In this document: piece by piece, positions 978 through 10,630 of the stretch | Layout of the letters: each line of letters begins with the position of its first letter | How positions within the stretch are numbered: position 1 is the stretch's first letter | Source: a virus | Virus record (IMG/VR): IMGVR_UViG_3300031787_000661 | Span: 1 to 28,040 of that record | Direction: 5' to 3' (one strand) | DNA length: 28,040 nucleotides | Position numbers and translations under genes: made by a program | The notes under the pieces: model-generated | What the model was told of the DNA's origin: nothing | The model's database searches: none | Seen by the model: only the letters and a program-made list of their open reading frames with translations

Positions 978-1212
978 TATGAAAGTTGTTAGGCGCAAGT
1001 TGGGAAAGGAGAAAGCGGATGGCCTTGCGCACATTGACGATAACACCATTGAGATTGATGAACGGCTCAAAGGCAAATACCGGTTAGAAATAACCATACA
1101 TGAAGCACTACACATACTATACCCAACAGATAGTGAAACCGCTATCATTCGCAAATCAAAGCGGCTGACTAATGTATTATGGAAACAAGGTTATAGGTTG
1201 GTGGAGAAATAG
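961..1212 (+). CDS. Small HExxH metallopeptidase-like protein
   Basis: An 83-residue protein with the zincin motif TIHEALHILYP (His47, Glu48, His51). In zincins the two His bind zinc and the Glu is the catalytic base. A downstream acidic stretch (TDSET) could give the third ligand. It is much shorter than SprT or other complete metallopeptidases, so it is a minimal domain whose activity is uncertain. It overlaps the end of the metallophosphoesterase; an internal Met at 979 (MKVVRRK) is an alternative start. The stop codon overlaps the edge of the oppositely oriented tRNA-like element at 1211. The role may be processing of a host or phage protein, which is inference only. Confidence 0.7.
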   Translation: MVNYTDMKVVRRKLGKEKADGLAHIDDNTIEIDERLKGKYRLEITIHEALHILYPTDSETAIIRKSKRLTNVLWKQGYRLVEK

Positions 1213-1332
1213 TCAGGACAGGATTGAACCTGTGGAAGACGGCTTGATAGTTTCTGCGCGAGGGCTACTTTATTCGCCACCCCTCAATCTTTGTCTTCAA
1301 TTACGTTGCGGAACCAATTCCGCCACCTGACT
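1211..1332 (-). ncRNA. tRNA-like RNA element 1 (degenerate)
   Basis: Read on the minus strand, the ends form a 7-bp acceptor-like stem (AGTCAGG/CCTGACT) followed by TG, a D-arm-like hairpin GCGGAATTGGTTCCGC, and at the 3' side a T-arm ACAGG-TTCAAT-CCTGT whose loop is 6 nt instead of 7. The anticodon arm is replaced by ~70 nt that can form nested stems (GAAGAC/GTCTTC, TTGA/TCAA, GAGGG/CCCTC). The left 15 nt and right 19 nt are identical to element 2 at 1524-1671. No normal 7-nt anticodon loop is seen, so I call it tRNA-like or a decayed tRNA rather than a working tRNA. It abuts the 55-aa membrane gene. Confidence 0.5.
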
Positions 1333-1338
1333 ATTTTA

Positions 1339-1506
1339 TTATGGGTAGTAGTCTGTATTATAATCGTTATTCTTTTTTTGTCTATCACTTTGTCCTGAAA
1401 AATCATCACCATCTTTCTCTCTATAAATTATAGAACAGATTATAAACCATACTATAAATAAAATAAACAAAATAAAAATAACATTTACAATATATGTTAC
1501 TACCAT
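1339..1506 (-). CDS. Small single-span membrane protein (55 aa)
   Basis: Not recognised. Starts MVVTYIVNVIFILFILFIVW: residues 3-28 are one strongly hydrophobic segment (rich in Ile, Phe, Leu, Val), followed by a charged tail (YREKDGDDFSGQSDRQKKNN) ending DYYP. This gives a short N-terminal membrane anchor with a ~27-residue soluble tail. It lies between the two tRNA-like elements, 17 nt after element 2 and 6 nt before element 1 in the direction of transcription. The layout (one span plus polar tail) would suit a superinfection-exclusion or lysis accessory peptide, but nothing specific supports either. The clean hydrophobic-then-charged layout argues that it is coding. Confidence 0.6.
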   Translation of the reverse strand: MVVTYIVNVIFILFILFIVWFIICSIIYREKDGDDFSGQSDRQKKNNDYNTDYYP

Positions 1507-1523
1507 AATATTAATTTTTAAGT

Positions 1524-1671
1524 AGTCAGGACAGGATTCTAACCTGTATTTGATTGTACACTCAAACCTATTAGTTGCATTACCCAGCTATGCTACTTCC
1601 TACGGTTAGGAAGGGAGAGTATCGATCCAACCTTCTCCTAATAGTGCGTCTACCAATTCCGCCACCTGACT
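1524..1671 (-). ncRNA. tRNA-like RNA element 2 with tRNA-like insert in the anticodon arm
   Basis: On the minus strand: acceptor AGTCAGG/CCTGACT, TG at 8-9, D-arm GCG-loop-CGC with GG in the loop, A26, then CTATTAG pairing with CTAATAG 63 nt later, a long variable arm (TTTGA/TCAAA, loop GTGTACAA), and T-arm ACAGG-TTAGAAT-CCTGT with a 7-nt loop. This is a class II (Leu/Ser-like) cloverleaf interrupted in the anticodon arm. The 63-nt insert itself holds a hairpin CTTCCTA-ACCG-TAGGAAG, then TA and a canonical D-arm GCAT-AGCTGGGTA-ATGC, i.e. the order of a circularly permuted tRNA. T-loop position 56 is A instead of C, so function is uncertain. No anticodon can be assigned. Confidence 0.55.
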
Positions 1672-5233: not shown

Positions 5234-5325
5234 GTCATGTTAGCGTAATCGGGAATGAATACCGACTTGGGATAACGCCTTCGCATTGTAGCGGAGAGAT
5301 ACGGGTTCGAGTCCCGTACATGGCT
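5234..5325 (+). tRNA. tRNA-like gene with 18-nt D-loop insertion (possibly Thr-UGU)
   Basis: Acceptor GTCATGT/ACATGGC (7 bp with one T-G pair), TA at 8-9, D-stem GCGT/ACGC, anticodon stem TTCGC/GCGGA, 5-nt variable loop, and a perfect T-arm ACGGG-TTCGAGT-CCCGT. Two oddities: the D-loop carries 18 extra nt (5255-5272), flanked by a repeated GGGA and able to fold as TCGG/CCGA; without it the loop would be a normal AATCGGGATA. The anticodon loop is only 6 nt (ATTGTA), so the anticodon is uncertain: UGU (Thr) if U33 is at 5286. No CCA is encoded. Confidence 0.6.
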
Positions 5326-5350
5326 CTTAACTAATCAAAAAAATAACAAA

Positions 5351-6722: not shown

Positions 6723-6917
6723 ATGACAATCCACCAATACCTCCGCAACAAAGACATCCGCACTAATACTACTGCAATGCTCAAAGACGGCAAATGGTAC
6801 CGTTACATTGGCGGTGCATGGGTGCCGGAAAAGCAGTTTGAGTTGATGTTTCCCCTACCATCGAAGATTGGGAACAACTCCGACAACCCGAATAAAAGAG
6901 CGTTATATCTTGATTAA
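6723..6917 (+). CDS. Hypothetical protein, 64 aa
   Basis: Not recognised. Small basic protein MTIHQYLRNKDIRTNTTAML with a following WYRYIGGAWVPEKQF and a polar end. The ATG at 6723 is preferred to an in-frame TTG at 6714, which lies inside the -7-like box. It ends 1 nt before the methyltransferase start, so it could be co-translated with it. No domain can be named; it may be a short accessory peptide of the methylase module. Confidence 0.5.
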   Translation: MTIHQYLRNKDIRTNTTAMLKDGKWYRYIGGAWVPEKQFELMFPLPSKIGNNSDNPNKRALYLD

Positions 6918-6918
6918 T

Positions 6919-7965
6919 ATGACCCACGGATCACTATTTAGCGGAATAGGCGGCTTTGATTTAGCAGCCGAATGGATGGGATGGGAAAACGTATTCCATT
7001 GCGAATGGAATGAGTTTGGACAAAAAGTATTACATCATTACTGGCCTAAAGCAATACAATACAATGACATCACTAAAACAGACTTCACTATTCACAGAGG
7101 AAACATTGACATCCTCACAGGAGGATTCCCATGCCAGCCATACTCATCAGCCGGAAAACGAAAAGGCAAAGAAGATGAGCGACATCTCTGGCCGGAAATG
7201 CTGCGAGCAATTAGAGAAATTCAACCACGTTGGGTTGTGGGCGAAAATGTTCTCGGCCTTGTTAATTGGTCAGGAGGGTTGGTATTCCACGAGGTGCAAG
7301 CTGACCTGGAAGCTCAGGGGTACGAAGTATGGCCGTATGTACTGCCAGCTGTATCCGTCAACGCTCCCCACAGAAGGGACAGGGTTTGGTTTGTTGCCTA
7401 CGCCAAAGACATTCGATGGTATGGCAGAGAGTGCAAATTCGGGGAAAACATTAATAAAGACGCCACAAGGTTTTGTGAATATAGACAAGAACGGAGTGAG
7501 ATGGGGGCCAAGCTTAAACGACATAGCGAGGAATCAACTACTCCCCACCCCAACGGCAATGGACTCAACGAACGCAACGGCAACGATGAAGAGCAGCCAG
7601 GTGAAGGAGGGTTCAATGCACTCAGTAACGCTGACACGGGCAATGAGTATGGGGATGTTGCCGACACCTGCAACAAGAGATTACAAGGGAGCCAGGTCAA
7701 CGGAAGCATTGGAGGAAGCGGGAAGGAATCAGACAAACTCACTACCGGATGCGTTCGCTCAAACTGGCAAAACTTCCCAACTCAATCCCCAATTTGTACT
7801 CGAAATGATGGGCTTTCCTCCCGACTGGACGGAATTACCTTTTCTAAGTGGCGAAACGAATCAATCAAAGCAGCCGGAAACGCTATAGTGCCGCAAGTCG
7901 TTTATCAAATATTTAAAGCAATTCAGCAATATGAAACACTACCCCGAATGGCGGATTCGATATAA
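6919..7965 (+). CDS. DNA (cytosine-5) methyltransferase
   Basis: 348 residues; transfers a methyl group from S-adenosylmethionine to C5 of cytosine in a specific DNA site. Motifs in order: I (SLFSGIGGFDLA, cofactor), IV (GGFPCQPYSSAG, catalytic Cys72), VI (GENVLG, ~108-113), VIII (HRRDRVWFV, ~151-158), a ~100-residue target-recognition region, then the C-terminal block WQNFPTQSP and RNESIKAAGNAIVPQVVYQI (motifs IX-X). The ATG at 6919 places motif I at the usual distance from the start. No restriction enzyme partner is obvious except the VRR-NUC-like neighbour, so it is probably a solitary protective or regulatory methylase. From 7064 to 7888 the same DNA carries a second long ORF. Confidence 0.9.
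   Translation: MTHGSLFSGIGGFDLAAEWMGWENVFHCEWNEFGQKVLHHYWPKAIQYNDITKTDFTIHRGNIDILTGGFPCQPYSSAGKRKGKEDERHLWPEMLRAIREIQPRWVVGENVLGLVNWSGGLVFHEVQADLEAQGYEVWPYVLPAVSVNAPHRRDRVWFVAYAKDIRWYGRECKFGENINKDATRFCEYRQERSEMGAKLKRHSEESTTPHPNGNGLNERNGNDEEQPGEGGFNALSNADTGNEYGDVADTCNKRLQGSQVNGSIGGSGKESDKLTTGCVRSNWQNFPTQSPICTRNDGLSSRLDGITFSKWRNESIKAAGNAIVPQVVYQIFKAIQQYETLPRMADSI
7064..7888 (+). CDS. Overprinted ORF in another frame of the methyltransferase gene, 274 aa
   Basis: Lies wholly inside the methyltransferase gene, same strand, shifted by one base. It starts MTSLKQTSLFTEETLTSSQE and contains CKLTWKLRGTKYGRMY, the repeated phrases LLPTPKTFDG, LLPTPTAMDS and MLPTPATRDYKGAR, and ends with NSLPDAFAQTGKTSQLNPQF, VLEMMGFPPDW. 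From memory, these phrases recur in proteins of Bacteroidota genomes and phages found with cytosine methyltransferases, so this frame looks like a real conserved protein, not a shadow. An open frame of >290 codons by chance has a probability of about one in a million per frame. Activity unknown; perhaps a partner of the methylase. The in-frame start at 7010 is an alternative. Confidence 0.6.
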   Translation: MTSLKQTSLFTEETLTSSQEDSHASHTHQPENEKAKKMSDISGRKCCEQLEKFNHVGLWAKMFSALLIGQEGWYSTRCKLTWKLRGTKYGRMYCQLYPSTLPTEGTGFGLLPTPKTFDGMAESANSGKTLIKTPQGFVNIDKNGVRWGPSLNDIARNQLLPTPTAMDSTNATATMKSSQVKEGSMHSVTLTRAMSMGMLPTPATRDYKGARSTEALEEAGRNQTNSLPDAFAQTGKTSQLNPQFVLEMMGFPPDWTELPFLSGETNQSKQPETL

Positions 7966-8419: not shown

Positions 8420-10630
8420 ATGATAAAACAAATCCATGCCGAATATACCGACATCGGCATCAAAGTAATCCCTATAGAATGGGACACAACAAACAAACAA
8501 CCCGTATCACACAGGAACTGGAGCAATCCCGATGATCTTACCCTGCGCCCATCCGATAACGGGTTAATGATTCTCACCGGCAACAATTACGGGTGCCTTG
8601 ACTTTGACCTAAAGAATACGAAGGACAAAGACATCTTCAACAAGTGGATGGCTATGGTAACCAATGAGGCACCGGAGATACTCAACAACCTATTTATAGA
8701 GCAAACGAGGAACGGTGGCTATCATGTGTGGATGTACTACCGACACTTACCCAAGAAGCAGCAGTTAGCTGCCAATCCGGAAGGGAACGAGGTAATTGCA
8801 CTATACTGCAACGGCCCGGTGGTTTACACTTACCCTACACCTGGTTATACGGAGTTCCACCAATCAATGGCTGACCTTAAAGAAATAACGGTTGAACAAT
8901 ATAACTATTTGATAGAGGTTAGTCAGTACTTTAACGAGTACAAACCGGCCTATGATCCGACAAAGAAAGCCATCAACTACCCAAAAGGGTATGAGCAGCA
9001 GTTATCCGATTATGACGGACATCTGTCTGAAGATAGTTTTGAGGCGATTTTAAACACTATCGGCCTTCATCCCATACCTGACTATCATTATAGAAAAGCG
9101 GACAAATTTAGGGCCTACAGGCGGCAAGGAAGTACATCTGTTGGAATCAGCGCAAAGGTGTACCATGCGGCAAAAAGGGTGCTGATATTTTCCGCAAGCA
9201 TGGATAACTTCCCAAACTGGCACAATAAGGAAGAATACCCCGAATGGTCTTTGCCGGCATCCTTTATGCTTTTCTATCATTTAGGCCGTGATTGGGAGAA
9301 AGTACTGCAGCACATAGGCATCGTAAAGGACACAACATCATACCCTTACGATATTTTTCCACTACCTGTGCAAAAATCATTGTTTGAGGTAGCTAATGAG
9401 AAATCACTCCACCCCGAGTTCCTTGCAACTGCAGGACTATGGACTATCGCATCACTTGCCGGCAACTGCTTTACTTCCGATTTACCGGATGAAACCAAGA
9501 ATATCTTATTTGCATTAATGATTGCACCGGTATCAGTTGGTAAAACCCCTGCATTCAAAGCAATGTGCGAAACACCGTTAAAGGATTTGTTAGCAAGGGA
9601 GGATAAAGAATATGAAGAAGAAGTAAAGAATTGGAATCTACAACGGGCAGATGCCAATAGTCGTAAAGAACCTTTCAACAAACCACACCCAAAACGATTT
9701 CATCCCTTTGCCGTTGATGGCACAACAGAGGGGTATATCTCACTTATGCAAGACCAACAAGGCGGTATGGGTGTGTACCATGATGAAGCGGAAACAATAC
9801 TCAATGCAGGGGCGCATAAAGCAAATAACGATTCTATATCCTTCTTTACCCAAGCATTCAGCGGTGGCCGCTATACGCAAATACGGGCCGACAGGTCGAA
9901 GGAAAGGGTAGTGAAATCTCTTAACATATCCCTGCTGATGGGAACGCAGCCATCAAGACTGAAAAACTTATTTGGTGCCGACCGCATCCAGTCAGGGTTT
10001 GCATCCCGTTTTCTTATGGTGCAATCCGATTACATCAAGTTGCAGGAAGAAGTGGACCCATTCACCCCGACACGGGCAATGTGCCAAGAGTGGAGCGATT
10101 TAATATTTGAACTTTACAAGCACAACAAAGAATTCAGCAAAGGCGATAAGCCACCCCGTAAAATCATTGTAACGGATGAAGCAAGACCAATTTTAACAAA
10201 ATATTATAGGCAGCAACGCAAGGATGCCAATGACAGGAAAGCCAATTCGGTGGAGGACTATGTGATGGGTACGGAAGCGAAGATGTCAGCGTACTTCTTC
10301 CGATTCTGCCACATCATAGCCATCATGCAGAATCCAATGGTACCACTTGTTACTCGTCAGGTCGCTGACCAAGCATGGCAGCTTTACCGGTGGTATGCAG
10401 AATCCACCATGCATATTTTGGGTAGTATCTATGAGGAAAATGAATCCGGCCTTCCTACTGATCTCCGCTTGTTGGTTGATAATCTTCCGGCAAAGTTTAC
10501 CACGAAAGAAATGGAGGCACTTTGCACACGTTTAAATATCAAACCCCGTAGATTTGTTGATGCTATGCGAAGGCAGGATTTTCAGCGAATGTTTAAGCGC
10601 ATCGCACATGGAGTTTATGAAAAGATGTAA
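8420..10630 (+). CDS. Bifunctional primase/polymerase-helicase
   Basis: 736 residues. The N-terminal ~200 residues match the bifunctional DNA primase/polymerase (prim-pol) fold: the IGIKVIPIEW opening, GLMILTGNNYGCLDFDLKN with the metal-binding Asp61-x-Asp63, and NGGYHVWM with the active-site His102. The C-terminal part is a DUF3987-type helicase: Walker A variant APVSVGKTPAF (~369-379), Walker B region GMGVYHDEAETIL (~449-461), then GADRIQSGFASRF with a possible arginine finger. It would prime and unwind DNA at the phage fork in place of separate primase and helicase. No Shine-Dalgarno before the ATG. A terminator follows at 10663. Confidence 0.85.
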   Translation: MIKQIHAEYTDIGIKVIPIEWDTTNKQPVSHRNWSNPDDLTLRPSDNGLMILTGNNYGCLDFDLKNTKDKDIFNKWMAMVTNEAPEILNNLFIEQTRNGGYHVWMYYRHLPKKQQLAANPEGNEVIALYCNGPVVYTYPTPGYTEFHQSMADLKEITVEQYNYLIEVSQYFNEYKPAYDPTKKAINYPKGYEQQLSDYDGHLSEDSFEAILNTIGLHPIPDYHYRKADKFRAYRRQGSTSVGISAKVYHAAKRVLIFSASMDNFPNWHNKEEYPEWSLPASFMLFYHLGRDWEKVLQHIGIVKDTTSYPYDIFPLPVQKSLFEVANEKSLHPEFLATAGLWTIASLAGNCFTSDLPDETKNILFALMIAPVSVGKTPAFKAMCETPLKDLLAREDKEYEEEVKNWNLQRADANSRKEPFNKPHPKRFHPFAVDGTTEGYISLMQDQQGGMGVYHDEAETILNAGAHKANNDSISFFTQAFSGGRYTQIRADRSKERVVKSLNISLLMGTQPSRLKNLFGADRIQSGFASRFLMVQSDYIKLQEEVDPFTPTRAMCQEWSDLIFELYKHNKEFSKGDKPPRKIIVTDEARPILTKYYRQQRKDANDRKANSVEDYVMGTEAKMSAYFFRFCHIIAIMQNPMVPLVTRQVADQAWQLYRWYAESTMHILGSIYEENESGLPTDLRLLVDNLPAKFTTKEMEALCTRLNIKPRRFVDAMRRQDFQRMFKRIAHGVYEKM

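Follow-up and report, generated by a model that had tools for sequence, protein, structure and literature searches.

tmRNA (SsrA) possesses a tRNA-like acceptor and T-arm, and it carries a large domain in the position of the anticodon arm. The bacterial Y RNAs (YrlA) use a tRNA-like fold within a non-coding RNA, and the GOLLD and ROOL RNAs are found near tRNA genes. In the laboratory, tRNA-scaffold technology grafts a structured RNA onto a stable tRNA body in the place of the anticodon arm. GOLLD, ROOL and OLE are large, ornate RNAs that are structured and non-coding and occur in bacteria and phages (PMC12286853).

In a 28,040-base virus record (IMG/VR IMGVR_UViG_3300031787_000661), which is the whole stretch of DNA that was analysed and is referred to here as the window, and which carries the tailed-phage genes for terminase, portal and major head protein, we found two members, RNA1 and RNA2, of a family of tRNA-Leu-like elements. 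These elements resemble bacterial tRNA-Leu (class II, Rfam RF00005) in having the D-arm of Flavobacteriaceae, A15-U48, G18G19, a TTCGAAT T-loop, A73 and no encoded CCA. They differ from it in their acceptor, AGTCAGG with A1-U72, and in the replacement of the anticodon arm by inserts, some of which are longer than 100 nt; among the scanned loci, matching elements mostly scored ~27-42 bits with the Rfam tRNA model, as compared to ~48-75 bits for ordinary tRNAs. Unlike tmRNA, the elements keep the D-stem and a tRNA-Leu-type body and are far shorter, and neither ARAGORN nor Rfam called a tmRNA in the window or the element-bearing loci scanned. Rfam matches to YrlA were at chance level (E of 0.1 or more) and lay at ordinary tRNAs rather than at the elements. 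In contrast to the large GOLLD, ROOL and OLE RNAs, the elements consist of a short constant tRNA scaffold with hypervariable inserts, and Rfam gave no match to these RNAs in the window or the 11 loci scanned. Laboratory tRNA scaffolds are man-made, whereas the elements form a natural, multi-copy, exchanged phage family.

No described family fits these RNAs. They have no Rfam family of their own, and no non-tRNA Rfam family matched at the gathering score in the window and 11 element-bearing loci, a set in which one element gave a sub-threshold match to tRNA-Sec. A description of the family was not found in the open-licence literature; preprints and many journals lie outside that coverage, and an earlier description may exist.

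Two tRNA-Leu-like RNAs in the window

RNA1 (Table 1) reads, in minus-strand order, AGTCAGG-TG-GCG-GAATTGGTAGA-CGC-A, a 7-bp stem with 63 nt, the variable hairpin, ACAGG-TTAGAAT-CCTGT and CCTGACT-A. The earlier note had drawn a class II cloverleaf with acceptor, D-arm, T-arm and variable arm at 1524-1671, together with a large extra domain in the anticodon arm. Every arm was found where it had been placed, on the minus strand, and the extra domain was confirmed, with RNA1 proving to be one member of a whole family. The minimum-energy structure given by RNAfold was the same cloverleaf (z -1.8), and 11 of 200 shuffled sequences were equally stable. Since this is only modestly better than the shuffles, the fold energy by itself is weak evidence; the strong evidence for the predicted structure is its relatives, ~300 elements with a common acceptor, D-arm and T-arm. 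Neither RNA1 nor RNA2 was called a tRNA by ARAGORN or by Rfam at the gathering score, and an anticodon arm (5 bp, 7-nt loop, U33) is absent in both. The Rfam tRNA model matched RNA1 at 22 bits, below the gathering score.

Table 1. Positions of the RNA elements and other features in the window.
Feature	Position	Strand	Remarks
RNA1: tRNA-Leu-like scaffold with insert	1523..1671	-	148 nt plus discriminator A
RNA1 constant 5' part	1646..1671	-	5' strand of 7-bp acceptor 1671-1665 (paired to 1530-1524), T8 G9, D-arm 1662-1646; kept in ~300 elements
RNA1 anticodon-position insert	1568..1644	-	7-bp stem 1644-1638/1574-1568 around 63 nt with three hairpins
RNA1 variable-arm hairpin	1549..1566	-	TTTGA-GTGTACAA-TCAAA; two loop bases differ in L289
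RNA1 constant 3' part	1523..1547	-	T-arm 1547-1531, acceptor 3' strand 1530-1524, A73 1523
RNA2: second family member	1210..1332	-	122 nt plus A73; same acceptor and T-stem as RNA1; missed by the earlier note
RNA2 module	1232..1298 (limits approximate)	-	Stem GAAGAC/GTCTTC around a nearly invariant ~50-nt core
Small membrane-protein-like ORF between RNA1 and RNA2	1339..1506	-	55 aa; no PHROG match
Third odd tRNA-like RNA	5234..5326	+	ARAGORN tRNA-Lys; Rfam 34 bits
Long ORF	6868..7965	+	Overlaps the next ORF in a different frame
Long ORF	7010..7888	+	Matches a phage DNA methyltransferase family

The insert of RNA1 contains the hairpin CTTCCTA-ACCG-TAGGAAG (1613-1596) and GCAT-AGCTGGGTA-ATGC (1593-1577). 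Together with a T-arm-like hairpin, these had been read as a circularly permuted tRNA lying inside the anticodon arm. A tRNA of that kind has its 3' half ahead of its 5' half, each with complete arms. The arms so drawn are present, the inner stems are identical in L289, the one further phage in which this insert turned up, and the 22-bit Rfam match touches the inner D-arm. However, the inner T-arm-like hairpin is weak, as the earlier note itself had said, with just 3 of 5 bp pairing. A motif defined as a 7-bp hairpin, a two-base linker starting with U and a D-arm-like hairpin with GG was present in 1 of 229 insert families, as compared to 0.96 expected in shuffled repertoires; it also arose in 1% of shuffles of RNA1's own insert, and the remaining family members lack it. 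With a weak inner T-arm and a motif at chance level, the permuted tRNA was rejected as very improbable, and a branched junction, within an insert that is one of many, describes the structure better.

L289 matches the window at RNA1, with 96% identity over 137 nt, and nowhere else. Because this independent contig from an otherwise unrelated phage carries the same RNA, the suggestion that RNA1 is a fusion of two tRNA genes caused by an assembly error is excluded.

RNA2 has a six-base T-loop and an altered D-arm. Its insert recurs in L221, where similarity to the window is confined to RNA2, and in L349, L350 and L351. In relatives, the closing stem of the module is changed to GAGAAC/GTTCTC with its pairing compensated, and the core is nearly invariant in the five phages. 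RNA1 has a T-loop defect as well, a C56 to A substitution (TTAGAAT) at a position where C is kept in 285 of 288 elements among those listed. Given these defects, RNA1 and RNA2 may be decaying or less functional than their relatives.

The third odd tRNA-like RNA of the window has a D-loop hairpin, TCGG-GAATGAATA-CCGA, and no canonical anticodon loop. Its relatives (L122, L124, L127, L150, L157 and L191) keep the loop GAATRAATA, their stem changes preserve pairing and their acceptors differ; together these modified tRNA-like RNAs possibly constitute a second family. Elsewhere in the window, the region of the two overlapping long ORFs matches phage DNA methyltransferases.

Family size, scaffold and hosts

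The family was collected from two independent IMG/VR scans, one using the exact 5' end GTCAGGTGGCGGAATTGG and the other the 25-nt 3' end, each yielding at least 120 stretches. Together with related loci, the scans gave at least 313 elements, at least 296 of them distinct, in at least 192 loci. The shared scaffold comprises the acceptor AGTCAGG/CCTGACT-A, the D-arm TGGCGGAATTGGTAGACGC and the T-arm ACAGG-TTCGAAT-CCTGT (~300 elements among the matches listed). Collection by exact patterns makes the bait sequences look more constant than they are, an effect that is limited by testing the 5' and 3' ends crosswise. In loci found by the 3' scan only, the 5' scaffold was present within 300 nt of 71 of the 78 exact 3' ends; six of the remaining seven elements start with AGTCAGG or AGTTAGG and have an altered D-arm, and one (L271) is without a 5' half. 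Among 188 elements in the 5'-scan loci, 145 had exact CCTGACT and 182 had the consensus T-loop. The two scaffold ends predict each other.

Across 287 elements, pairing in the acceptor and T-stem was intact in 96-100%. Double compensatory changes numbered 26 in the T-stem and 7 in the acceptor, as compared to 2.6 and 0.5, respectively, in shuffles that ignore kinship among the elements. Where position 15 is A (273 elements), the tertiary 15-48 pair was A-T in 247; where it is G (eight elements), the pair was G-C in seven. Judged against a tRNA-Leu cloverleaf, the family has the acceptor, D-arm, T-arm and tertiary core (15-48 and elbow). The tRNA fold and tertiary core of the scaffold are under selection.

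A T precedes 82% of the elements, C mostly follows A73, and CCA is encoded in 9 of 309. Flavobacteriaceae tRNA-Leu genes have a D-arm identical to that of the scaffold and also share A73-C74, and their acceptors differ. The pattern of T(-1), A73 and C74, the rarity of encoded CCA and the likeness to Flavobacteriaceae tRNA-Leu make it likely that the elements are processed as tRNAs; charging with leucine is possible. Just 8 of 309 elements overlap long ORFs, and neighbouring elements lie on the same strand in all 117 pairs.

A one-genome-per-species collection of 84,980 prokaryote species contained only seven matching loci, all in metagenome-derived records. In the isolate phage collection, none had the scaffold at both ends, and matches in S-TIP37, phi3T and others were not counted as members. 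No plasmid record matched at both ends (one had a half-scaffold match), and one-mismatch matches in Chitinophagaceae genomes, apart from locus G016, did not extend into elements. Because isolate phages and plasmids yielded no two-end match and the prokaryote matches were all metagenome-derived, the family is mainly one of uncultured phages. Shine-Dalgarno-like motifs were rarer ahead of ORFs neighbouring the elements than in the control (5.5% vs 9.4%); this depletion and the tRNA comparison suggest that the hosts are probably Bacteroidota.

Inserts and their exchange between phages

The anticodon/variable region of the elements, and at times the D-loop, is replaced by inserts that are unrelated among elements. 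Grouping of 292 distinct elements gave 229 insert families, 188 of them seen once, a count that depends on the BLAST threshold; the Chao1 estimate was ~840 families. When inserts were folded alone, they were moderately more stable than shuffled sequences (mean z -0.78), with 12% below -2. Compensatory changes were present in insert stems of three families (A1-A3, in alignments of 3-7 sequences each), most clearly at seven of nine pairs in one hairpin. No strong sequence motif common to the inserts was found.

Six-nucleotide palindromes were depleted in 229 representative inserts (130, as compared to 215, sd 15, in shuffles), as expected from restriction avoidance. A kissing-loop dimer, which TGTACA in the window and TATATA in L289 had brought to mind, was rejected in view of this depletion; palindromic hairpin loops were slightly commoner in inserts (13 of 196 vs ~7 of 158). 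Extra T-arm-like hairpins were observed in 5 of 229 inserts, as compared to 0.4 in shuffles. Four of these are at L053 727, L096 9369, L250 291 and L027 5644, and the fifth (L088) may be the element's own T-arm.

Most inserts are placed at the tRNA intron position, which is consistent with intron-bearing or split tRNA-Leu genes from which the insert is spliced out, and an intron had been among the readings offered for RNA1. Removal of the insert from RNA1 leaves no anticodon arm, and canonical anticodon arms were present in 15 of 189 members, as compared to 10.4 in shuffles, which is the level expected by chance. There is also no common intron core, and no Rfam intron family matched either the window or the 11 element-bearing loci. 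Because no conserved anticodon arm would remain after excision, splicing is highly improbable.

Inserts move between unrelated phages. Besides those of RNA1 and RNA2, another module, which was searched for without the scaffold, was present in 21 contigs, with both scaffold ends in 19 and the 3' end only in L271; L353, one of the 21, is cut by the contig end. The L289 element contains a further insert of ~100 nt in its D-loop. Modules can occupy two scaffold positions, the anticodon and the D-loop. The D-loop inserts at L289 6391-6493 and in L093 from position 17 lie in elements whose anticodon-position insert recurs in other phages.

In relatives of the window, the site of insertion is downstream of an SprT-like gene, often right after a gene for a small membrane protein (which ends at 1681 in the window). 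Its occupants are 109 nt in L313 and L122, 94 nt in L316, 110 nt in L325-L327, 89 and 124 nt in L328, 116 nt in L331, 72 and 105 nt in L333 and 152 nt in L336; in other relatives it contains a truncated 5' remnant (L317) or is empty (e.g. L318 and L320-L324). Identity between the window and L122 ends at the scaffold/insert boundaries, and the adjoining small gene differs too. This loss of identity suggests homologous recombination within the scaffold. Together with the varying occupancy of one site, it is also consistent with DNA-level recombination cassettes, in which the scaffold would be an exchange site for small genes and the RNA would be incidental. We regard that reading as quite unlikely, since the compensation in the tertiary pair and stems demands RNA folding. 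Moreover, no common recombinase was found near the elements in the listed loci, and the commonest neighbouring ORF family was present in just 14 of the 192 loci listed. The lack of a common partner gene suggests that the elements act with a host factor or by an RNA-only mechanism.

The truncated remnant in L317, the missing anticodon and the T-loop defects of both window copies might also mean that the elements are decaying tRNA-Leu pseudogenes with neutral centres. This reading was already disfavoured, and it is very unlikely in light of the near-invariant ends flanking a variable centre, the conservation of insert modules across unrelated phages, such as that shared with L289, and the compensatory changes.

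The maximum number of members among the matches listed was 13, in L091. In such phages the elements sit within clusters that also contain 14-23 ordinary tRNA genes. One tRNA cluster with eight elements, in L102, also contains a near-threshold match to the freshwater-1 RNA (RF02979, 70 bits vs 72) at 8501-8562 on the minus strand.

Possible role of the elements

We propose that the tRNA-Leu-like scaffold is a handle that provides for the biogenesis and stability of structured RNA modules, which are exchangeable. The elements would share transcripts with small genes of the phage or with tRNA clusters, be cut out by the host's RNase P and RNase Z, and be finished at their ends by the CCA-adding enzyme, after which they may persist as L-shaped RNAs incapable of decoding. 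The insert would be the active part, presented on the tRNA body, and might bind a protein or mimic another RNA. From the sequence comparisons above, we give this explanation as a whole an even chance of being correct. It speaks against a simple guide or antisense role for the inserts that complementarity to phage tRNAs, the element's own contig and host rRNA was at chance (mean z ~0).

The diversity of the elements, their multiplicity, their spread over unrelated phages and the turnover at one site resemble those of anti-defence loci. By this analogy, which draws on how diverse the elements are, how many copies occur and how they are exchanged, the most likely setting would be a fast-changing conflict, either with the defences of the host or with competing phages. 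A more specific form of the explanation, which we would place just short of even, is that a common pool of exchangeable, structured RNA effectors, numbering in the hundreds or more, is displayed by phages on a constant, host-matured tRNA-Leu-like scaffold, each insert with a different target in host defence or rival phages.

The elements might instead be decoys, as had been suggested for RNA1, that occupy host enzymes or nucleases acting on tRNA (defence tRNases, LeuRS or EF-Tu), with the insert varying to escape or fit nucleases. The retention of the host-type D-arm, A15-U48 and A73 in the scaffold is in keeping with this, as are the many copies per genome adjoining tRNA clusters. On the other hand, the elements offer no anticodon loop to anticodon nucleases, and a pure decoy would not need conserved, compensated insert modules. 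We consider the decoy reading a possible but unlikely rival to the scaffold with exchangeable modules.

The family serves as a warning that programs that call tRNAs overlook or mislabel many phage RNAs. If the proposed explanation is true, there would be hundreds of uncharacterised RNA folds to mine, and the family would be a natural version of biotechnology's tRNA scaffold. Phages would then own an arsenal of cassette-like non-coding RNA modules made via host tRNA processing, an RNA counterpart to anti-defence protein islands.
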